NCBI GenBank assembly: GCA_020161505.1
Contig: JAIUNY010000009.1
Location: 1 to 64,000 of the forward strand
DNA: 64,000 bases
Reading direction: 5' to 3'
From: Armatimonadota bacterium
GTDB lineage: Bacteria; Armatimonadota; Fimbriimonadia; Fimbriimonadales; Fimbriimonadaceae
Positions 45,929 through 56,212 of this stretch are shown one piece after another. Each line of letters opens with the position of its first letter. Positions within the stretch are counted from its first letter, which is position 1. A program made the translations under genes and the position numbers. The notes under the pieces were generated by a model. It saw only the letters and a list, made by a program, of their open reading frames with translations. It was not told the DNA's origin and did not search any database.

Positions 45929-46258
45929 TCAAAAACTCTTCGGATCAAGGAATCGCGTTCGACTGGACATCTGCGAGGCTGGGTAGACCCGAAGCACGAT
46001 GACTTCTGCCGGATCGTCGCTCACTGAGTAGAACACGAGGTGTGAGTGGTAGACGGTTTGGCGAATCTCCATGTCGAACCGATGCGGGTCATCGATCGCC
46101 CTGAACCGGCGCGGCATTGTCTCAAGAGACTCAATCTGTTCCTGAAGACCGGATATCCACCGCTCTGCTGGGGGCTCCGCTTTCTCCTGAAGCAGGATGT
46201 AGCTGGCATAGTCGTCGATGTCTCGCGCCGCTTGCGCGGAGATCCTCACCTCATACAT
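45929..46258 (-). CDS. RelE/ParE-family toxin
   Basis: A 109-residue protein with the RelE/ParE fold: I-S-A-Q-A-A-R-D-I-D-D-Y-A-S-Y-I, P-A-E-R-W-I-S-G-L-Q, M-P-R-R-F-R-A-I, R-Q-T-V-Y-H-S-H-L-V-F-Y-S-V and V-I-V-L-R-V-Y. Charge and loops fit ParE-like toxins (gyrase or ribosome inhibition). It starts eight bases inside the antitoxin gene (8-bp overlap). The toxin-second order fits a type II module. No terminator is clear before the sigma factor gene. Confidence 0.85.
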   Translation of the reverse strand: MYEVRISAQAARDIDDYASYILLQEKAEPPAERWISGLQEQIESLETMPRRFRAIDDPHRFDMEIRQTVYHSHLVFYSVSDDPAEVIVLRVYPASQMSSRTRFLDPKSF

Positions 46259-46532
46259 CGAGTTTCGATCGAATGTCTCGGAAGACGTCAGCCGCTGGTC
46301 TCGCCGGTGCCTCGTTCAGCGAATCGATGCCTTCCTGGATGGCGCGTGCAAGTTCGGCACGCTCGTAGGCTTCCGCCATTTTCTGATAGTGCTCCACGTT
46401 GACGATGACCCCCTCTGCTTTGCCATTCACCGTGAGGACTTCCGGCTCCCCCGTCTCGCGGATCCGGTTCAGAAACTCGCGGTAATTGCGGACGAAGTCG
46501 GTGACAGGGTGGATTCGATCAGCGCGAATCAT
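46251..46532 (-). CDS. Phd/YefM-family antitoxin
   Basis: A 93-residue protein with the Phd/YefM DNA-binding N-terminus (I-H-P-V-T-D-F-V-R-N-Y-R-E-F-L-N-R-I-R-E-T-G-E-P-E-V-L-T-V-N-G-K-A-E-G-V-I-V) and a helical C-terminus that wraps the toxin. ATG 46532 is preferred: TTGGCT, 17 bases, TATATT ends nine bases before it, so the transcript would be almost leaderless. The frame open further upstream (to 46583) runs through this promoter and is rejected. Confidence 0.87.
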   Translation of the reverse strand: MIRADRIHPVTDFVRNYREFLNRIRETGEPEVLTVNGKAEGVIVNVEHYQKMAEAYERAELARAIQEGIDSLNEAPARPAADVFRDIRSKLDV

Positions 46533-46541
46533 ATAGGTAAG

Positions 46542-46570
46542 AATATAGCATAGAATTCTTTGCGAGCCAA
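46542..46570 (-). promoter_or_regulatory. promoter of the Phd/ParE module
   Basis: On the minus strand TTGGCT (46565-46570), exactly 17 bases, TATATT (46542-46547), then CTTACCTAT and the antitoxin ATG. The spacing is ideal, and transcription would start two or three bases before the start codon. Confidence 0.75.
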
Positions 46571-46584
46571 ACTCGAGCCACAAG

Positions 46585-46636: not shown

Positions 46637-47242
46637 TTACTTAGGCAAGCGAGCGTTGACGGCGTCCCAGTCGATGACTTCGGCGTAGGCGTCGATGTAC
46701 TTCATCCGAGCCGTTTGGAAGTCGAGGAAGTACGCATGCTCGTAGACGTCCATTGCCAGCAACAGGGTGTGGTTCCAAGCAGGGAAGGTGTCTTGGGCAT
46801 CGCCGATGTAGGTGTGGACGCGCTGCTCAGCGTGATCATAGCCCAGGAACACCCAGCCCCGACCCGCCATGCCAGTGGCCTTCCAGTCCGCAAGCCAGCG
46901 CTCGAAGCTGCCGTAGGATTCGTTGATCAGCGTGGCCACATCGCCGGTTGCCGGGCCGCCCTCGCCGCCGAGAGTCTCGAAGTAGACCTGGTGGTTGATG
47001 TAGCCGCCGTAGGCGAACGCATAGTTCACCTTGAGGGCGCGCATTTCGCTGTAGATTTGGTTCGCCTTCGCGGGGTCGATCTCCATGTTCGCCAGAGCGG
47101 TGCGAATTTCGTTGGTCTTGTTGGCATAGCCCTTATAAAGGCCCAGGTGAGCCTCGTGGGTGGCGCGGCTGATGCCAACGCGCTCGGTAGTGAAGACCTT
47201 CTCCGGAAGGGCATCGGGGACAACAACGAGCTTGGGATCCAT
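46637..47242 (-). CDS. Fe/Mn-type superoxide dismutase
   Basis: A 201-residue protein of the Fe/Mn superoxide dismutase family: Y-A-F-A-Y-G-G-Y-I-N-H-Q-V-Y-F-E-T-L-G-G (second His ligand), G-S-F-E-R-W-L-A-D-W, R-G-W-V-F-L and M-D-V-Y-E-H-A-Y-F-L-D-F (Asp and His ligands). The N-terminal helix reads T-H-E-A-H-L-G-L-Y-K-G-Y-A-N-K, not the classic H-H-x-K-H-H-x-x-Y-V. It belongs to a variant subfamily, and the first ligand is probably His32. AAAGGAG precedes the ATG. No signal peptide, so it is cytoplasmic. Confidence 0.88.
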   Translation of the reverse strand: MDPKLVVVPDALPEKVFTTERVGISRATHEAHLGLYKGYANKTNEIRTALANMEIDPAKANQIYSEMRALKVNYAFAYGGYINHQVYFETLGGEGGPATGDVATLINESYGSFERWLADWKATGMAGRGWVFLGYDHAEQRVHTYIGDAQDTFPAWNHTLLLAMDVYEHAYFLDFQTARMKYIDAYAEVIDWDAVNARLPK

Positions 47243-47999: not shown

Positions 48000-48668
48000 T
48001 TAGGCCTTGCGTCGCTTGCGGGCAGCCATCGCAGCACCCAGGCCAAGAGCGATCATCGTGCCCGGCTCCGGAACTGCTTCCAGGCTGGTGAGGGTGAGGT
48101 CGCCGCTGGCACCGGTGTCGAACCGAACCACCATCTGGTCGATGTCGTTGAAGTTGATACCGCTGAACTCGTTGAATCCGACCGTCATCATGAACGGGGT
48201 ATTCACTTGGTTGCCTGGGATCGACTTGGTCACCGTGGCGTAGTTTCCGCCGTTGCTCGAGCTGCTGCGCACCGAGACGATGAGGCTGCCCGGAGCATCG
48301 CTGCTCTCGAAGTTGAACTTGAACGCGTTCTCGGTGGAGAGGTTCAGATTCAGGTTTTGATTCGTGGTGCCCGATCCGCTGGAAGCGAAGCCATAGCCAA
48401 TTTCGCCGAAGCCGTTGACTTGGCCTTGGGAGGAGAGGGAATAGCTGCCGCCGGCAATGTCAGTTTGGATTTCCAGACCGAACGGGTTGGATTGCACGCC
48501 GGTGAGGGCGTAGCGGTCTCCGCCAACCATCGATCCGGTTTGGAATCCGAGGCTGGTGCCTGCGTTGATGGTTTGGCTGACGTTGCCGGTGCTGAAATCG
48601 TCCAGCATGATGGCAGCGTGTGCCAGGCCACTGACCGCGGTGAGGATGAGCAAGATGGGGGTTCGCAT
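48000..48668 (-). CDS. PEP-CTERM surface protein 1 of 5
   Basis: A 222-residue secreted protein: signal MRTPILLILTAVSGLAHA, then I-M-L-D-D-F-S-T-G, G-S-M-V-G-G-D-R-Y, N-E-F-S-G-I-N-F-N-D-I-D-Q-M, G-D-L-T-L-T-S-L-E-A-V. It ends with the sorting signal V-P-E-P-G-T-M-I-A-L-G-L-G-A-A-M-A-A-R-K-R-R-K-A. PEP-CTERM tails are cut by exosortase in exopolysaccharide-producing bacteria. The exosortase is not in the window. The same family motifs occur in all five array members. Probably a beta-sandwich matrix protein. Confidence 0.9.
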   Translation of the reverse strand: MRTPILLILTAVSGLAHAAIMLDDFSTGNVSQTINAGTSLGFQTGSMVGGDRYALTGVQSNPFGLEIQTDIAGGSYSLSSQGQVNGFGEIGYGFASSGSGTTNQNLNLNLSTENAFKFNFESSDAPGSLIVSVRSSSSNGGNYATVTKSIPGNQVNTPFMMTVGFNEFSGINFNDIDQMVVRFDTGASGDLTLTSLEAVPEPGTMIALGLGAAMAARKRRKA

Positions 48669-48810
48669 GATTTTCAGGTAACTCCGTGGATGTGGGCCTT
48701 GGCCCTCCGTGAGCTTTCAGCTTGCACTCGCTGTGCCACGAAAAGAAGTCGGGGCGATTTCTGGTAGTCCTACGGGGCAGGTGAAATTGAAGGAGCGAGA
48801 CGCGAAAAAG

Positions 48811-48842
48811 CCCAGGAGTGAGGTGGCCCCTGCACTCCTGGG
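48811..48842 (-). terminator. intrinsic terminator of PEP-CTERM gene 2
   Basis: Ten-bp arms CCCAGGAGTG (48811-48820) and CACTCCTGGG (48833-48842), followed on the minus strand by CTTTTTCG. It lies 26 bases after the stop of the gene at 48869. Confidence 0.85.
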
Positions 48843-48868
48843 ATTGTGTGACGCCGAAGCGCTCGACT

Positions 48869-49540
48869 TTACTTACGTCGTCGACGAGCGGCGAAACCAG
48901 CTGCTGCGACGGCCAGCAGGCTCATCGTTGCCGGTTCGGGAACGGCCTTAAAGGAGTCGATGGTGACATCGCCGCTGGTGGCGGGGTCGATTTCGACATA
49001 GATTTGATCAAGGTCGCTGAAGTTGAACCCAGTGAACTCCGAGAAGTTGTAGGTCAGCAGGGTCGGGGTGTTGACGTTGCCGCCGGGCAGACTCTTCGTC
49101 ACCGTGATCAGAGTGCTCGGGTTTTGTTGCGCGCTGCGCACCGAGATCGTGATGTTGGTTGGCTCGTCGTTCGACAGAACCAGGATCTCGAAGGCGCTTT
49201 CCGCCGACGCATCGAAGTTCATGTCTTGGAAGCCGAAGGTGCTGCCGAGATCTTGGTATCCATAGCCCAGCTGAGCGAAACCATTCACGCCCGGTTGGCT
49301 AGAGACGCTGAGGCGACCGGTGATCGCATCAACTTCAAATTCCAGACCGAAGGCGTTCGATTCCACTTGCGAGCGCATGAGGCGATCGCCACCGAGCATC
49401 GAGCCAGCCTGGAAGGCATAGCCCGTACCGGAGACCGAGCCAGCGCCCGTATCATAGTCGTCATAAACGAGGGCCGCTTGCGCCACGCCTGCCACCACCG
49501 ACAGACCCGCAAGAGTAGACAAAGTAAGGATGTTCTTCAT
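48869..49540 (-). CDS. PEP-CTERM surface protein 2 of 5
   Basis: A 223-residue secreted protein: signal MKNILTLSTLAGLSVVAGVAQA, then L-V-Y-D-D-Y-D-T-G, G-S-M-L-G-G-D-R-L, Y-N-F-S-E-F-T-G-F-N-F-S-D-L-D-Q-I and S-G-D-V-T-I-D-S-F-K-A. The sorting signal is V-P-E-P-A-T-M-S-L-L-A-V-A-A-A-G-F-A-A-R-R-R-R-K. The start is 28 bases after the stop of gene 3, so genes 3 and 2 are probably cotranscribed, ending at the terminator 48811-48842. Confidence 0.9.
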   Translation of the reverse strand: MKNILTLSTLAGLSVVAGVAQAALVYDDYDTGAGSVSGTGYAFQAGSMLGGDRLMRSQVESNAFGLEFEVDAITGRLSVSSQPGVNGFAQLGYGYQDLGSTFGFQDMNFDASAESAFEILVLSNDEPTNITISVRSAQQNPSTLITVTKSLPGGNVNTPTLLTYNFSEFTGFNFSDLDQIYVEIDPATSGDVTIDSFKAVPEPATMSLLAVAAAGFAARRRRK

Positions 49541-49568
49541 TCTTTCTCTCCAAATTCAGTTGTGAGTC

Positions 49569-50225
49569 TTAGGCCTTGCGACGTCGCGCAGCCAGGGCAG
49601 CGGCACCAAGGCCGAGAGCGATCATCGTGCCCGGCTCAGGAACAGCTTCGAACGAATCGAGAACCAAGTCGCCCGAGGTCGAGGTGTTGATGTTCGCGAC
49701 AATCGTGTCAATGTCGGCGAAGTTGATTCCGGCAAACTCGGAGAAGTTGAAGGTCACCGATTGCGGAGTCGTCACCATGTTCGGCATCACAGCCTTAGCC
49801 GCCGAAGAGACGGTCGTGCTGCCGGATCGGAGAACCACCGTGATGGTCGCCGGGTTGTCGTTCGAGAGAACGTTGAACTTGAGCTGCGTGAAGCTGCTCA
49901 GATTGGCGTTCAAGTCGTTGGCAATGTTCACGGAACCGGTCGAGTCCACGCCCCAGGCGATCGTCGTGTCGGCATCGACTTCGTTCTTCGACGAGGTCGA
50001 GAAAATGCCATTGACGACCGTGGTCGAGTGGGACAGGCTGAACGGGTTCGCCGTGATGTTGTGCATCACATAGCGGAATCCGCCGGGAACCGTCGCTGCC
50101 GTGTAGGTTGCGTTCGATCCGCTGAAAATCTTGTCATTGATGTTGCCATCAGTGAAATCGTCAAGCACCAAAGCGTGCGCAAAAACGCCCGCAGTGGCAA
50201 GGGCCACCAAGAGAATTGCTCTCAT
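49569..50225 (-). CDS. PEP-CTERM surface protein 3 of 5
   Basis: A 218-residue secreted protein starting at ATG 50225 (signal MRAILLVALATAGVFAHA). It carries V-L-D-D-F-T-D-G, V-P-G-G-F-R-Y in place of the usual G-S-M-V-G-G-D-R, F-N-F-S-E-F-A-G-I-N-F-A-D-I-D-T-I and S-G-D-L-V-L-D-S-F-E-A. The signal V-P-E-P-G-T-M-I-A-L-G-L-G-A-A-A-L-A-A is almost identical to gene 1. It is the most diverged member in the middle. A frame reading to 50261 would cross the promoter and is not used. Confidence 0.88.
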   Translation of the reverse strand: MRAILLVALATAGVFAHALVLDDFTDGNINDKIFSGSNATYTAATVPGGFRYVMHNITANPFSLSHSTTVVNGIFSTSSKNEVDADTTIAWGVDSTGSVNIANDLNANLSSFTQLKFNVLSNDNPATITVVLRSGSTTVSSAAKAVMPNMVTTPQSVTFNFSEFAGINFADIDTIVANINTSTSGDLVLDSFEAVPEPGTMIALGLGAAALAARRRKA

Positions 50226-50287
50226 ATACTTTTTCCTCTGCAAGAAATGTGGTCGGGGCAAATGCCTCGCCCAACAGAAAAAGTATA
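50226..50287 (-). promoter_or_regulatory. promoter and inverted repeat before PEP-CTERM gene 3
   Basis: TATACT (50282-50287) is a good -10 box. It is part of ATACTTTTTC (50277-50286), which is repeated inverted as GAAAAAGTAT at 50226-50235, immediately before the start codon. The 5' end of the transcript could pair with the translation start region, or a dimeric regulator could bind both halves. Confidence 0.5.
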
Positions 50288-50480
50288 GACCCCGAACTGT
50301 TAAGAAATGTGGGGAATTGCGGGAATCGACGCAAGACTGGCAACCCTACCAGGGTAGACCCTTGACAAAGCGATAGTTGCGTGTGCACAGAAACCGCGCT
50401 TTAGGTTCAAAAGTGGGACGGGGCCAGGGTGAACCGCTCAACTGATTCGATTCCCCCTGGATCACTGTTCTGCGATTGAA

Positions 50481-51155
50481 CTAGGCCTTCTTGACCCGCT
50501 TGCGCCGTGCCAATGCCGCCGCACCAGCCAGCAGAGCCATCGTTGCCGGCTCAGGAACCGCCTCGACGCTCGTGATCACCAAGTCGCCCTCACCCAGAGG
50601 ATCGATCTTGACCAGCACCCGGTCAATGTCGCCGAAGTTGATGCCGGTGAATTCGCTGTAGTTGAACACCACTTGGGTCAAGCTGCTTGTGTTCTGCCCC
50701 GTCAGAGTCTTGGTGACTGAGGACGTGTTGCCCGTGGTGCTGCTGTAGAGCTCGATCTTAAATTCGGTGTCCAGGTCGTAGCTCAGCACGTTGATCACAA
50801 ACTGATCCGGAGCCGAGAGGTCAAGATTCATGTCGTCTGCCACCGGAGCCGAGCTCGGGGCCGCAACGCCGTAGGTGAGACAGGCAAAACCATCGACCTG
50901 AGCCTGCGAGCTGAGAGCGAGGATTCCTGCAACCGCATCAATCTGGATGCTGAGACCCGTGCTGCTCTGGACTTCCAAGTGGGTGTGGCGATCTCCGCCC
51001 ACCATGGTGCCAGCTTGGAAAGACTTCAGCGATCCGGTATTGATGGACCCGCTGTAGACACCGGTACTGAAATCGTCGATGATGGCCGCCTGAGCCGAAC
51101 TGGCGGCAAGAGCCAAAAATGCAAGACCTGCAACGCTAAACGTGAACTTATTCAT
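50481..51155 (-). CDS. PEP-CTERM surface protein 4 of 5
   Basis: A 224-residue secreted protein: signal MNKFTFSVAGLAFLALAASS, then A-I-I-D-D-F-S-T-G, G-T-M-V-G-G-D-R-H, F-N-Y-S-E-F-T-G-I-N-F-G-D-I-D-R-V and E-G-D-L-V-I-T-S-V-E-A. The sorting signal is V-P-E-P-A-T-M-A-L-L-A-G-A-A-A-L-A-R-R-K-R. One extra Cys (C-L-T-Y-G) appears mid-protein. A -10 box TATACT lies at 51214-51219, giving a leader of about 55 bases with a small hairpin (GGTCA-TTTT-like stem) just before the ribosome-binding AGGAG. Confidence 0.9.
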   Translation of the reverse strand: MNKFTFSVAGLAFLALAASSAQAAIIDDFSTGVYSGSINTGSLKSFQAGTMVGGDRHTHLEVQSSTGLSIQIDAVAGILALSSQAQVDGFACLTYGVAAPSSAPVADDMNLDLSAPDQFVINVLSYDLDTEFKIELYSSTTGNTSSVTKTLTGQNTSSLTQVVFNYSEFTGINFGDIDRVLVKIDPLGEGDLVITSVEAVPEPATMALLAGAAALARRKRVKKA

Positions 51156-51331
51156 CTCTTCTCCTGATGGTCAAAAGTGACCTCTCAAACGAATCCCGTT
51201 CGAGAACAGGGAGAGTATAGCGCGCACGTCACCAACGTGAACCTGAATCGGGCTAATTTTGAATCAAACTGGTATTTCTGCCGAGCCGAGCACCCAGGGG
51301 CAAATCGGCGAGGGCCCGCGACAAACGAAAA

Positions 51332-51359
51332 ACCGGCGGAGACAAGAGTCTCCGCCGGT
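51332..51359 (-). terminator. intrinsic terminator of PEP-CTERM gene 5
   Basis: A perfect 12-bp stem (ACCGGCGGAGAC, 51332-51343, with 51348-51359), four-base loop, followed on the minus strand by TTTTTCG. It ends the transcript of the gene at 51395 and separates it from gene 4. Confidence 0.9.
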
Positions 51360-51394
51360 AGGTTGGGCGCGAACAACAAGCGCCGAGGGGATGC

Positions 51395-52066
51395 TTAGCT
51401 GTTCTTCTTGCGACGAGCAGCCAGGGCCAGAGCGCCCGCCAGCAGGGTCATGGTCGTCGGCTCAGGAACCGCCTCGATCGAGTCGAGGGTCAGGTCGCCG
51501 CTGACTTGCGTGTTGAACTCCACCAGAATCTGATCAACATCGGCGAAGTTGATGGTGCTCCACTCGCTGAAGTTGTAGGTCAGAGTCGTGGGGGTGTTGA
51601 CCATGTTGCCCGGAAGATTCTTCGTCAGCATCTCCGTGACGCCAGCCGAGCGCAGGCTCATGGTCACGCTCACCGGCTGGTCGTGGGAAAGAACGTCGAT
51701 TTCGAATCGGTTCTCCGCGCTCAGGTTCAGGTTCATATCCTGGAACGCAAACGCTCCCGAGTTGTTGAAATAGCCATAACCGATTTGCGTGTAGCCATCC
51801 ACTCCGGCTTGGGAGGAGATGTTGAACGTTCCGGTCACGGTGTTCACCTGATAGCTCAGGCTGAACGCATTGCTGGTCACTTCCATCTTCAGGCCGCGGT
51901 CGCCACCGGACATGCTGCCATTTTGGAAATCAAGAAGCGAGCCCGACGTGATGCTTTGAGCAACTGCGCCGGACGAGAAGTCATCGATCACGACAAGAGC
52001 GGAAGCGGGAACCGCCGCCAGGATGCTCAGGCTAAGTGCTGAGCTCACCAAAAGAGCTTTTCTCAT
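51395..52066 (-). CDS. PEP-CTERM surface protein 5 of 5
   Basis: A 223-residue secreted protein: signal MRKALLVSSALSLSILAAVP, then V-V-I-D-D-F-S-S-G, G-S-M-S-G-G-D-R-G, Y-N-F-S-E-W-S-T-I-N-F-A-D-V-D-Q-I and S-G-D-L-T-L-D-S-I-E-A. The sorting signal is V-P-E-P-T-T-M-T-L-L-A-G-A-L-A-L-A-A-R-R-K-K. It has its own promoter (TATACT at 52210-52215) and an unusually long structured leader, described separately. First gene of the array next to rfbC. Confidence 0.9.
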   Translation of the reverse strand: MRKALLVSSALSLSILAAVPASALVVIDDFSSGAVAQSITSGSLLDFQNGSMSGGDRGLKMEVTSNAFSLSYQVNTVTGTFNISSQAGVDGYTQIGYGYFNNSGAFAFQDMNLNLSAENRFEIDVLSHDQPVSVTMSLRSAGVTEMLTKNLPGNMVNTPTTLTYNFSEWSTINFADVDQILVEFNTQVSGDLTLDSIEAVPEPTTMTLLAGALALAARRKKNS

Positions 52067-52203: not shown

Positions 52204-52215
52204 GATCAAAGTATA

Positions 52216-52354: not shown

Positions 52355-52918
52355 CTACTCGCCAAAATACTGGGGTCTCTTGTGAGGAGGAAGTTCGCCC
52401 AACATGGGCTGATTTTGATCTTTCTCCGAGAGGAAAACATCATCAAGCGGCCACTCAATCGCCAGAGCGGGGTCGAGATAGTGAATCCCGCCGTCATCCT
52501 CTTTACTAAAGAAATCTGTGCACTTGTAAGTGACCAACGCCTCTTCGCTGAGCGTGCAGAACCCATGAGCAAATCCTTTCGGCACGAAGAGCATACGGTG
52601 GTTTTCTTCACTCAAAATGACCGCGTGCCACTGACCAAAAGTGGGTGATCCTTCTCGAATATCCACCGCAACATCAAAGATTTCTCCCCGGAGAGCGGAA
52701 ACCAGCTTGCCCTGCGGATTCGGCCACTGAAAGTGCAAACCTCTCAAGATTCCCTTTCTCGTGCTCAAGGAGACATTGTCCTGAACAAAGCGATCGGTGA
52801 ATCCTTGCTGCTGGTACTTCGCCCAGTTATAAGCCTCGAAGAAGTAGCCACGAGAATCGCCAAACACGTCCGGCTCGACAACCAAAACTCCGGGCAAGGG
52901 GGTTTCGATGAGCTTCAT
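52355..52918 (-). CDS. rfbC: dTDP-4-dehydrorhamnose 3,5-epimerase
   Basis: A 187-residue cupin-fold protein: G-Y-F-F-E-A-Y-N, F-V-Q-D-N-V-S-L-S, G-I-L-R-G-L-H-F-Q (catalytic His), G-E-I-F-D-V-A-V-D-I-R-E-G-S-P-T-F-G, F-V-P-K-G-F-A-H-G-F and Y-K-C-T-D-F-F (catalytic Tyr region). It makes dTDP-4-keto-L-rhamnose. It starts at ATG 52918, two bases after the rfbA stop. A frame open upstream lies inside rfbA and is rejected. Third step of dTDP-sugar synthesis in the rfbB-rfbA-rfbC operon. Confidence 0.95.
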   Translation of the reverse strand: MKLIETPLPGVLVVEPDVFGDSRGYFFEAYNWAKYQQQGFTDRFVQDNVSLSTRKGILRGLHFQWPNPQGKLVSALRGEIFDVAVDIREGSPTFGQWHAVILSEENHRMLFVPKGFAHGFCTLSEEALVTYKCTDFFSKEDDGGIHYLDPALAIEWPLDDVFLSEKDQNQPMLGELPPHKRPQYFGE

Positions 52919-52920
52919 GG

Positions 52921-53802
52921 TTAAACCGCTCCCTCCGCCACCTGAATCAGATAGCGACCATAGCGGTTCTTGCTCATGGCTTCGCCTTGCTGCATCAAAT
53001 CTTCTGCCGTGATCCAGCCCATCCGGAAGGCGATTTCCTCCAGGCAAGCGACCATCAGCCCCTGCCTTTCCTCAACGGCCTGGACAAAGTTGGACGCTTG
53101 AAGCATCGATTCCGCTGTTCCCGTGTCGAGCCAGGCGAATCCGCGGCCGAACCGGGTGACGTGCAAGGAACCCTGCTCCAGATAGAGTCGGTTGAGGTCG
53201 GTGATCTCCAGCTCTCCGCGCGGCGAGGGCTTGAGAGCCTTGGCGAGCTCCACGACTTGCTGGTCATAGAAGTAGAGCCCGGTGACGGCAAAGTTGGACT
53301 TTGGCTCTTTGGGCTTTTCCTCGAGTGTCTCTGCACGGCCCTCGGCATCGAAACTCACGACCCCATAGGCCTCTGGATGTTCGACTTGCGTCGCGAAAAC
53401 GGTGGCCCCGGTTTCGCGCGCATGGGCTTCGCGCACCAGGCCGGTGAGGTTTTGACCGTAAAAGATGTTGTCTCCCAGCACGAGGGCGGCCGGATTCCCG
53501 CCGAGGTACTCGTCTCCAATCAAGAAAGCCTGCGCCAGCCCCTCTGGCTTCGGTTGGACTTCGTAGGTGAACCGCACCCCGAACTGCTCGCCATTGCCCA
53601 ACAGCCGCTGGAAGGCCTCTTGCTCGTGCGGCGTGGTGATGATGAGAATCTCGCGGATCCCCGCGAGCATCAGCACGCTGAGCGGGTAATAGATCATGGG
53701 TTTGCTGAAGACCGGGATCAGCTGCTTGCTAACGCCGAGCGTGATGGGATGAAGCCGAGTGCCGCTCCCTCCGGCCAGTACAATGCCCTTGCGGTCGCTC
53801 AC
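52921..53802 (-). CDS. rfbA: glucose-1-phosphate thymidylyltransferase
   Basis: A 293-residue nucleotidyltransferase: [16 protein letters not shown] (nucleotide binding), [34 protein letters not shown] and A-W-L-D-T-G-T. It makes dTDP-glucose from dTTP and glucose-1-phosphate. GTG 53802 overlaps the rfbB stop as GTGA, and the N-terminal V-S-D-R-K-G-I-V fits the family start. The usual start is near the first strand, so longer versions are rejected. Confidence 0.95.
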
Positions 53803-54857
53803 GAGTTCACTCCCTTGCCATAGTGGGTGTCGATCCATTCGCGGTAGGCACCAGTCTTCACACTGTTGATCCACTCCGGGTTCTGGAGATACCACTCCAC
53901 CGTCTGGTGGAGTCCTTCTTCAAACGTGACGCTTGGCTCCCAGCCGAGCTTCTCCCGGATCTTGCTGGCATCAATCGCGTACCGGAAATCGTGCCCGGGT
54001 CGGTCGGCGACGAACGAGATGAGTTGCAGATACTGATCTTCGGAGCTGTTGGTCAGTTGGGCCAGGCTTCGACAGATGCCCTCCACCACCTGGAGGTTGG
54101 TGCGCTCGCTGTTCCCGCCAATGGCGTAGGTTTCTCCAATCTCTCCCCGTTCGAGAACCGTCCAGATTGCATCAACATGGTCGTTCACAAAGAGCCAGTC
54201 GCGGATGTTGGCTCCTTTGCCATACACCGGAAGCGGCTCCATTGTCAGCCCCTTGAGCACCATCACCGGAATCAGCTTCTCGGGGAACTGATAGGGGCCG
54301 TAATTGTTGCTGCAGTTCGTGATCTTCACCGGGAGCCCATAGGTGTGATTCCACGCCCTCACCAAATGGTCACTTGAGGCTTTGCTCGCGCTGTAAGGGC
54401 TGCTGGGGTCGTAGGGAGTGGTTTCGGAAAAAGCCCCTGTCTCACCGAGCTCGCCGAAAACCTCATCGGTTGAGACGTGGTGGAAGATGCGCCCCTCAAA
54501 CTGGTCCGACCAAATGGTTCGGCAGGATTCAAGCAGATTGTATGTGCCAATGATATTCGACTGAATGAAGTCGCCAGGGAACTTGATGCTCCTGTCGACG
54601 TGGGTTTCTGCAGCGAAGTGAATGACCCAGTCTGGTTGAAAGGCTTCCACCACTTGGTGAGTATCGGCGGAATGCGCGAGGTTCACCTTGGCGAAGTCGT
54701 AGTTGGGCAAATCCTCGATCTCTTGGAGACTCAGCGGATTCCCCGCGTAGGTGAGGGCATCGAGGTTCAGAAACTGATGCTCGGGGTGCCGGGGCACCAT
54801 GCGCCGCAGAAAGTTCGCGCCAATGAACCCGCAGCCTCCGGTCACCAGGATATTCAT
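53799..54857 (-). CDS. rfbB: dTDP-glucose 4,6-dehydratase
   Basis: A 352-residue extended [17 protein letters not shown] (NAD binding), [24 protein letters not shown] (catalytic region), [15 protein letters not shown] (Tyr-x3-Lys) and [17 protein letters not shown]. Makes dTDP-4-keto-6-deoxyglucose. First gene of the operon. TAAACT ends seven bases before ATG 54857, so the mRNA is probably leaderless. rfbD for the last step is not in the window. Confidence 0.96.
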
Positions 54858-54935: not shown

Positions 54936-55190
54936 GTGAGTAAGCTTCCGACCATTCCAGAAGAGCTCAAGCATGTTCTGGTCGCGACTCCAGAAGTCCT
55001 CAGTGGGGGCATTCGCTTTGTCGGGACTCGAATTCCCGTGGAGGCTCTCATCGACACGCTCCTTGCCGGTCAGGGCTTAGATGTTTTCCTCTACGAGTGG
55101 CCAGACGTGACGGAAGAGCAGGCGATTGCGGTCGCGAACTGGGTGCGTGGTCAGGCCCTAGATCGCCTGGGGATCGAGCGTGCGAGCTGA
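54936..55190 (+). CDS. DUF433 antitoxin, module C
   Basis: An 84-residue DUF433 protein beginning at GTG 54936. Segments: P-E-E-L-K-H-V-L-V-A-T-P-E-V-L-S-G-G-I-R-F-V-G-T-R-I-P, L-I-D-T-L-L-A-G-Q-G-L-D and W-P-D-V-T-E-E-Q-A-I-A-V. The promoter has GGCGTAGAAT, six bases, GTG, matching module A exactly in the ten-base block. The stop overlaps the toxin start (TGATG). It is close to module D (same strand, 400 bases away). Confidence 0.82.
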   Translation: MSKLPTIPEELKHVLVATPEVLSGGIRFVGTRIPVEALIDTLLAGQGLDVFLYEWPDVTEEQAIAVANWVRGQALDRLGIERAS

Positions 55191-55534
55191 TGAGGATTCT
55201 CTTGGACAACTGTGTGCCTCGTACCCTCGCGGCGGCCCTCCTTGGTCACGAGGTGACTCATTGCCGCGCAATCGGTCTTCACGAGTTCGAAAACGGGAAA
55301 CTTCTGAAAGCTGCTGAGGAAGGGGGCTTTGACGTCCTTCTCACGGTGGATCGTGGGTTTCAGCATCAGCAATCCTTGGCTGGTCGAAGCCTCTCTCTGA
55401 TTACGGTGCAGGGAAATGGGACAACTGTTCCCGCACTGATGGTTCATGTGCCGGCGATTCTCCACGCTCTCGCGGATTTGGAGACAAACAAGGAAACCGG
55501 GCGGAGCATCGTCATTGCCCCGCCGACATCGTAG
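55190..55534 (+). CDS. DUF5615 PIN-like toxin, module C
   Basis: A 114-residue PIN-like protein: M-R-I-L-L-D-N-C-V-P-R, H-E-V-T-H-C-R-A-I-G-L-H-E-F-E-N-G-K-L-L, L-L-T-V-D-R-G-F-Q-H-Q-Q-S-L. It ends with E-T-G-R-S-I-V-I-A-P-P, shared exactly with module D. The second acid of modules A and B (D-E-N) is replaced by D-N-C in modules C and D. The start is ATG 55190 within the antitoxin stop. A longer frame from 55097 lies in the antitoxin gene. Confidence 0.8.
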   Translation: MRILLDNCVPRTLAAALLGHEVTHCRAIGLHEFENGKLLKAAEEGGFDVLLTVDRGFQHQQSLAGRSLSLITVQGNGTTVPALMVHVPAILHALADLETNKETGRSIVIAPPTS

Positions 55535-55598
55535 CTTGGCTATTCGAAGCTCTCAAGACCGGGTGATTCAGATATCAAGGAACACAACGTAAAATAGC

Positions 55599-55856
55599 AT
55601 GATGATCCCGCAAACGATCCCTCCTGAACTTCAGGGAGTTCTGGTCGCGACTCCGGACACTCTCAGCGGGAGCATCAGGTTCCGGAACACGCGAGTACCC
55701 CTCAAGGCCCTCCTAGATACGCTCCATGCAGGCGAGGGCGTGGAAGAGTTTTTGGAAGGCTGGCCCGATGTATCGCGAGACGACGCCCTGGTTGTACTCC
55801 GCTGGATACATGACTATGCTGTGCAAGGAATGAGCGGCGTCGAGCAGGCATCTTAG
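55599..55856 (+). CDS. DUF433 antitoxin, module D
   Basis: An 85-residue DUF433 protein: P-P-E-L-Q-G-V-L-V-A-T-P-D-T-L-S-G-S-I-R-F-R-N-T-R-V-P, L-L-D-T-L-H-A-G-E-G-V-E, W-P-D-V-S-R-D-D-A-L. Very similar to module C, evidence of tandem duplication. Two ATGs occur at 55599 and 55602. TAAAAT (55590-55595) leaves six bases to the second, so a leaderless start at 55602 is likely. The stop overlaps the toxin GTG by one base. Confidence 0.8.
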   Translation: MMIPQTIPPELQGVLVATPDTLSGSIRFRNTRVPLKALLDTLHAGEGVEEFLEGWPDVSRDDALVVLRWIHDYAVQGMSGVEQAS

Positions 55857-56212
55857 TGAAAATCCTGCTCGACAACTGCGTCCACGGCCGATTCGGCATT
55901 TTCCTCGCAGGCCATGAGGTCGTCCACTGCTCCCAGGTTGGCTGGGGTGCCCTGCAAAACGGCAAGCTTCTGCGGGCGGCTCATGCAGAAGGATACGACG
56001 TGCTGATCACCGTTGATCAGGGGATTCGTTCTCAGCAGGATGCTCGAAATTTGCCCCTTCACCTCCTTACCTTGGAGACGCCCGATATTCGCCTCCCGTC
56101 GCTGGCCGAGCTTGTCCCATCCATCCTCGAAGTCCTTGCCCAACTCGAAACAGAAAACGAAACCGGGCGGAGCATCGTCATTGCCCCGCCCGGTCGAGAT
56201 TCCGGCGAATAG
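55856..56212 (+). CDS. DUF5615 PIN-like toxin, module D
   Basis: A 118-residue PIN-like protein starting at GTG 55856: V-K-I-L-L-D-N-C-V-H-G, H-E-V-V-H-C-S-Q-V-G-W-G-A-L-Q-N-G-K-L-L, L-I-T-V-D-Q-G-I-R-S-Q-Q-D and the C-terminal E-T-G-R-S-I-V-I-A-P-P shared with module C. It ends ten bases before the stop of the convergent E1 gene. Probably an RNase-type toxin. Confidence 0.8.
   Translation: MKILLDNCVHGRFGIFLAGHEVVHCSQVGWGALQNGKLLRAAHAEGYDVLITVDQGIRSQQDARNLPLHLLTLETPDIRLPSLAELVPSILEVLAQLETENETGRSIVIAPPGRDSGE

Follow-up and report, generated by a model that had tools for sequence, protein, structure and literature searches.

We analysed a window of 64,000 nucleotides, positions 1 to 64,000 of contig JAIUNY010000009.1 from an Armatimonadota bacterium of the family Fimbriimonadaceae (assembly GCA_020161505.1), in which an array of genes for PEP-CTERM proteins, that is, proteins with a C-terminal sorting tail, is our main subject. 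The array consists of five tandem open reading frames (ORFs) of 218-224 amino acids each, all on the minus strand and named here PEP1 to PEP5. PEP1 (48000..48668, 222 amino acids) belongs to what we call the alpha line and is a PEP-CTERM protein with a predicted beta-sandwich and a C-terminal transmembrane helix; PEP2 (48869..49540, 223 amino acids), of the beta line, is the second gene of a likely operon whose first gene is PEP3 (49569..50225, 218 amino acids from its ATG), of the gamma line and bearing a VPGGFR motif; PEP4 (50481..51155, 224 amino acids) falls in none of the three lines, and PEP5 (51395..52066, 223 amino acids) is a second beta-like copy. In full-length alignment PEP2-PEP5 are 42-47% identical to PEP1, and the tails of all five score above the cut-offs of PF07589 (Pfam) and TIGR02595 (NCBIfam), which confirms the five tandem PEP-CTERM paralogues proposed in a first-pass annotation of this DNA. 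The common motifs listed there are also present, with variants: the alignment displays AVPEP and DDF/DDY..G in the five proteins, a [FY].E[FW]..[IF]NF.D[ILV]D block, with substitutions, in five of five, and G[ST]M.GGDR in four, PEP3 carrying ATVPGGFR instead, as had been claimed. This altered motif is not decay, because VPGG[FN]R is common to all eight gamma orthologues and is the hallmark of that line. The N-termini, judged by eye in the alignment, are hydrophobic with A-x-A-like ends. For the protein family before the sorting tail, no full-length match over cut-off was found in Pfam or NCBIfam, and in every one of 33 members the Pfam matches lay in the tail only.

A five-row profile of the array proteins, searched in 61 genomes, yielded near-full-length matches (E 1e-9 or better) in at least 21 of them (8/8 of the genus and 13 others), with an in-frame stop in the family members of G048 and G049. 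A scan of one genome per species (84,980 species) gave 48 loci, seven of which cover the greater part of the query at E <1e-10; the loci are titled mostly Armatimonadetes or Fimbriimonadaceae, and one, labelled Methanoregulaceae, is suspected to be a mislabelled bin. The tree of the copies, which had been suggested as a check, was built with 43 members and disclosed three orthologous lines: alpha (PEP1) in 5/8 genomes of the genus (support 98/93), beta (PEP2/PEP5) in 8/8 (89/82; placement of PEP2, 90/76) and gamma (PEP3) in 8/8 (98/87). PEP5 groups with the beta copy of the congener G001 (96/87), PEP4 lies outside the three lines at an unsure position, and the same uncertainty attaches to long-branch rows such as G002c and G000b. 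Congener arrays run alpha, beta, gamma; those that lack alpha run beta, gamma. Recent duplication was considered and ruled out: pairwise dS (synonymous divergence) among the five is 1.2 or higher, which is close to saturation, and the genus as a whole shares the orthologous lines, so that the array did not expand recently. Five pairs of close orthologues gave dN/dS (nonsynonymous to synonymous) ratios of 0.027, 0.039, 0.114, 0.044 and 0.061, much like those of superoxide dismutase (SOD), DinB and rfbB (0.030-0.044), and close orthologues are thus under strong purifying selection; the positive selection for which a test had been proposed was not seen in these five pairs (0.03-0.11), whole-gene averages being able to mask single sites. 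As to gene conversion, also proposed for testing, none was found at the whole-gene level by comparing tail and body DNA identity in 21 within-genome pairs, but in some places the sorting tail, and it alone, seems to have been exchanged, the tail/body identities being 77/51% for PEP1-PEP3, 72/52% for PEP4-PEP5 and 77/47% for beta-gamma of G001, with a smaller difference in the remaining 18 of the 21 pairs. A further family line was noticed at a separate locus in seven congeners (L090-L095, L097; eight rows, support 100/100); the source genome showed only a partial match, on contig C23.

In the source genome (3.14 Mb in 38 contigs, with 61 PEP-CTERM matches) a single exosortase was found, on the array's own contig (C31:86467-87375) and 34 kb from the array. 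It passes the PF09721 (143 bits) and TIGR04178 signature but reaches no NCBIfam subtype cut-off, the best XrtD model giving 103 of 400 bits, so that it may represent an unnamed subtype. Its ACSG, NGLR and HDYG segments are those that we take to hold the exosortase Cys, Arg and His. The adjoining gene encodes an EpsI-like protein (DUF3485), genes for a polyprenyl sugar transferase and a chain-length/tyrosine-kinase protein (of which the first 606 residues were scanned) lie near, and exopolysaccharide (EPS) genes are spread across 40 kb beyond the array. A search for a PrsK-like gene gave none over cut-off, the best match in the genome to the PrsK histidine kinase model (TIGR02916) reaching 102 bits against a cut-off of 300; matches below that cut-off also occur in 13/14 control genomes. 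Each of the eight genomes of the genus has one exosortase, and 36 of 37 further genomes have the gene; the exception, G036, is a member of the same family with a 1.5 Mb genome and shows neither exosortase nor PEP-CTERM match, and apart from it, exosortase and PEP-CTERM are both present in the relatives examined with both searches. The distance between array and exosortase, ~34 kb here, is 12 kb in G001, 25 kb in G002 and 23 kb in G004. A missing exosortase, or scattered and ancient copies, had been named as outcomes that would speak against the first-pass idea; the exosortase is there, and the copies are ancient yet clustered, so that neither outcome applies cleanly. The PEP-CTERM/exosortase (EpsH) system is described in Haft 2006 (PMC1569441). 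The array agrees with it in the AVPEP motif followed by a transmembrane helix and a basic end, in the many copies per genome, in a putative signal peptide (as judged by eye) and in an exosortase with an EpsI-like partner near EPS genes, and differs in an exosortase below the subtype cut-offs and in having no PrsK over cut-off. A PEP-CTERM-like tail was also observed in the Protein Data Bank, at the end (residues 503-527) of 8s6c_A, a chain named lactoperoxidase.

Separate promoters and terminators had been claimed for the copies. On the minus strand 70 nt before the PEP1 start lies a sigma-54-like -24/-12 element (TGGCAC...TGC, 48723..48738), scored by a -24/-12 scheme. A GG-N10-GC element stands at -69/-70 in four of the five alpha orthologues and TGGCAC is present in all five; in the fifth, that of G001, TGGCAC is at -89 and TGA replaces TGC. 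Four of the five real upstream stretches score 7, and single-base shuffling, repeated 5000 times, brought at most two of the five to a score of 6; as the orthologues are related, this gives no formal probability. RpoN is encoded in 8/8 genomes of the genus (285 bits in the source genome), and the combination of RpoN with a -24/-12 element was found for the alpha copy only. In Aquincola, according to PMC9850573, pepA is RpoN-dependent through TGGCAC/CTGCTT motifs, and its overexpression converts soluble exopolysaccharide into bound. The alpha copy is like these PepA floc proteins (NF033554) in being a PEP-CTERM protein with an apparent RpoN-type promoter; in contrast, the best array score against NF033554, 34.2 bits for PEP2, is far under the 80-bit equivalog cut-off, and here we have a tandem array of old lines with the element in one line only.

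In the gamma line, a TATACT that is the likely -10 element of the PEP3-PEP2 operon (50282..50287, minus strand) is conserved, the eight orthologues all carrying TATACT between -59 and -65 together with a GCAGAGGAAA leader. Similar TATACT hexamers on the minus strand upstream of PEP4 (51214..51219) and 149 nt upstream of PEP5 (52210..52215) are candidates read in this sequence alone, with no orthologue for comparison. PEP3 and PEP2 are 28 bp apart, and congener beta genes follow gamma by 0-40 bp, as computed from longest-ORF starts. A hairpin scan placed terminator-like hairpins on the minus strand after PEP2 (48813..48832) and, a strong one of 12 pairs with 9 G-C, after PEP5 (51332..51359); with nine sites against a shuffle mean of 5.2, the scan is weak taken alone. 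A further terminator-like hairpin after PEP1 is a by-eye reading, and neither the scan nor the reading of the array revealed one after PEP3 or PEP4. On account of the upstream elements of PEP1, PEP3, PEP4 and PEP5 and of the 28-bp spacing, the reading that fits the array best is one of four or more transcription units, including one two-gene operon. The claim thus stands in so far as several copies have distinct conserved upstream elements, but not for the closely spaced PEP3-PEP2 pair nor for terminators after PEP3 and PEP4.

Structure prediction, likewise suggested at the outset, was carried out for two copies. The AlphaFold2 models of PEP1 (mean local confidence, pLDDT, 84.0; overall score, pTM, 0.78; 23 sequences; C-terminal helix 202-221) and PEP3 (83.3, 0.77 and 21 sequences) are beta-sandwiches with a C-terminal helix, nearest to CBM11 and CIA30/NDUFAF1. 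CBM11, a carbohydrate-binding module (CBM) family, was the top Foldseek match of both (E 4.6e-8 for PEP1 and 1.7e-8 for PEP3), followed closely by CIA30/NDUFAF1, with several other CBM families, including CBM4, CBM22, CBM29 and CBM61, lower on the list; VIA-align gave Z 11.5 for NDUFAF1 and 10.6 for CBM11, with many near-ties. When the sequence profile was compared with the Protein Data Bank, CBM11 chains ranked second and third, but at E 1.4-1.6. The family shares with the CBM11 of Clostridium thermocellum (6r31, 6r3m, 1v0a) the predicted beta-sandwich, a DDF in the N-terminal part and a corresponding strand region toward the C-terminus, but has no significant sequence match to it and no conserved Trp, and carries a membrane sorting tail. 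With CIA30/NDUFAF1 (7zkq, 7zkp) it shares the predicted fold, but the array proteins are bacterial and have the sorting tail, and the relative of solved structure acts as a mitochondrial assembly factor; the CIA30 Pfam family gave no match in the 33 members at E up to 10, and the GG motif of the array is one that we presume to resemble a motif of CIA30. Outside the tail, conservation is highest at D23, F25, G28, G49, G50, R52, N61, G74, Y92, G93, D124, D177, G189 and D190. A viral fold library yielded matches to phage tail-fibre and CenC-like proteins, a generic beta-sandwich list. The predicted fold is therefore that of a broad CBM-like beta-sandwich group, and the likeness to CBM11 is one of predicted fold, not of sequence family.

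We believe, with a probability of roughly 60%, that the array encodes exosortase-processed, CBM-like matrix proteins under different promoters. The sequences with their sorting tails, the exosortase, the lines of orthologues, the conserved upstream elements and the predicted folds are what the analysis establishes. From them, and by analogy with known exosortase systems, we infer a course in which the proteins would be exported via a putative N-terminal signal peptide and fold beyond the inner membrane as a beta-sandwich like that of carbohydrate-binding modules, the PEP-CTERM helix anchoring them until the sole exosortase cuts it off and hands them on, probably in the direction of the outer surface and of the exopolysaccharide matrix, where they may bind polysaccharide. 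The copies are old, separately maintained versions, with PEP4 and PEP5 as extra copies in this species; judging from the upstream elements, alpha may be switched by a sigma-54-type promoter, and gamma and beta may be made together from a housekeeping-type promoter. The first-pass annotation had spoken of a matrix family linked to exopolysaccharide, and the exosortase and the CBM-like predicted folds fit that role, but the rfb neighbourhood, as shown below, does not serve as functional evidence for it. In a cyanobacterium, loss of CrtB is reported to alter the PEP-CTERM proteins of the exoproteome and to impair polysaccharide adhesion (PMC12188702). A bolder version, which we put forward only tentatively, holds that the array proteins are lectin-like building blocks of the matrix, with the sugar-binding part in the protein itself and the exosortase as its means of delivery. 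They would come in three old versions that differ in ligand or partner, one under sigma-54 and two under a housekeeping promoter, the choice of promoter setting the make-up of the matrix; if true, these CBM11/CIA30-like exosortase substrates of Fimbriimonadales would form a family not described before. As a system the array is of a known kind, but the protein family, with its old and differently switched copies, seems not to have been described. The literature library searched yielded no paper linking PEP-CTERM with Fimbriimonas or exosortase with Armatimonadota, and for PEP-CTERM with Armatimonadetes one LuxI/LuxR survey. PEP-CTERM proteins are abundant, and most lack recognisable domains; a conserved family with a CBM-like predicted fold, whose separate lines and upstream elements are unusually well kept across the genus, is a small testable set, and in one gene line it would carry over to Armatimonadota the connection of sigma-54 with PEP-CTERM genes that is reported in Proteobacteria.

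Several findings weigh against exosortase-processed, CBM-like matrix proteins. Array and exosortase are 169 kb apart in G005 and 172 kb in G006, and on separate contigs in G003 and G007, so that their linkage is loose. General sigma-54 control of PEP-CTERM genes was considered and found no support: after 7/38 in a first pass, sigma-54-like sites in a larger set were only weakly commoner before PEP-CTERM genes (9/64, one gene of 65 being dropped for short upstream DNA) than before control ORFs (3/95), the control stretches being longer (310 vs 220 nt); one of the nine, that of PEP2, lies inside the PEP3 coding end and is probably spurious, and in G006 the counts were 2/54 PEP-CTERM genes against 3/161 control ORFs. 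The rfbA, rfbB and rfbC genes were near the family in none of 15 loci from 13 genomes outside the genus, several of these loci ending early on short contigs. On the structural side, the Foldseek template-modelling scores behind the CBM11 likeness are 0.4-0.5, many beta-sandwiches are alike (VIA-align Z 9.7-11.5 among the 50 matches listed), the profile matches to solved CBM11 chains (E 1.4-1.6) are not significant, the Pfam carbohydrate-binding models gave no match in the 33 members at E up to 10, and no tryptophan is conserved in the family, PEP1 having none at all. Some of these points would equally suit envelope proteins that are sorted by the exosortase but bind proteins, metal or each other, the beta-sandwich being a structural brick whose likeness to CBMs is one of fold. 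CIA30/NDUFAF1, MAM domains, a haloarchaeal virus turret and the FlaA sheath protein score like the CBMs, and, besides the missing Trp and CBM sequence matches, the conserved positions are mostly acidic or glycine (D23, G49, G50, R52, D124, D177 and D190). However, CBM11 was the first Foldseek match of both modelled copies and appears in the same register at the sequence level, though not significantly, and we regard this alternative as possible but clearly the less probable.

The genes around the array bear on two other explanations. On the minus strand, it is adjoined by rfbC/rmlC (52355..52924), rfbA/rmlA (52921..53850) and rfbB/rmlB (53799..54857), which pass TIGR01221, TIGR01207 and TIGR01181, respectively, and whose functional membership is putative; together with a WcaF-like gene (NF007797) and a UDP-sugar dehydrogenase gene (TIGR03026), they bear out the gene assignments of the first-pass annotation. 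An older neighbour is the Fe/Mn SOD gene (46637..47242, minus strand). Congeners (7/7) have these genes in the order SOD, DinB, array, enolase, sdhC, rfbC, rfbA, rfbB (enolase and sdhC being named from a reading of their sequences, and the enolase of G006 not being listed as a single full frame). In the source genome, enolase and sdhC are together at C31:107494-109603, ~55 kb from the array, and PEP4 and PEP5 fill the place that they hold in congeners; the direct contact of array and rfb is therefore a feature of this species. The rfb neighbourhood is only a weak pointer to function, given that enolase and sdhC intervene in all seven congeners and that no rfb was found at the 15 outside-genus loci. 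It is accordingly unlikely that the array is specifically coupled to dTDP-sugar synthesis with every copy separately expressed, as the adjoining rfbCAB and the EPS genes across the next 40 kb might suggest, the more so as enolase and sdhC are still paired here (C31:107-110 kb) and PEP2 has only 28 bp upstream. We find it similarly improbable that the array works with SOD, its oldest neighbour, in a response to envelope stress and not with the polysaccharide genes: the two are neighbours in 7/7 congeners and also in two genomes from other genera, G009 and G015, while rfb is not near the array outside the genus, and a gene for a sigma factor of the extracytoplasmic function (ECF) type lies near the array in the window, but those two are the only ones of the 15 outside-genus loci with SOD near, and in congeners SOD lies beyond a DinB gene from the array.

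Two smaller features of the window were observed in passing. Beside SOD, at 45929-46583 on the minus strand, there is a pair of genes for a ParE-type toxin (PF05016) and a Phd/YefM antitoxin (PF02604). At 54936-56212 on the plus strand there is a small two-gene unit in two tandem copies, presumably DUF433/DUF5615, and a similar pair, of about 38% identity, is present on contig C23 (L101:6640-7229).

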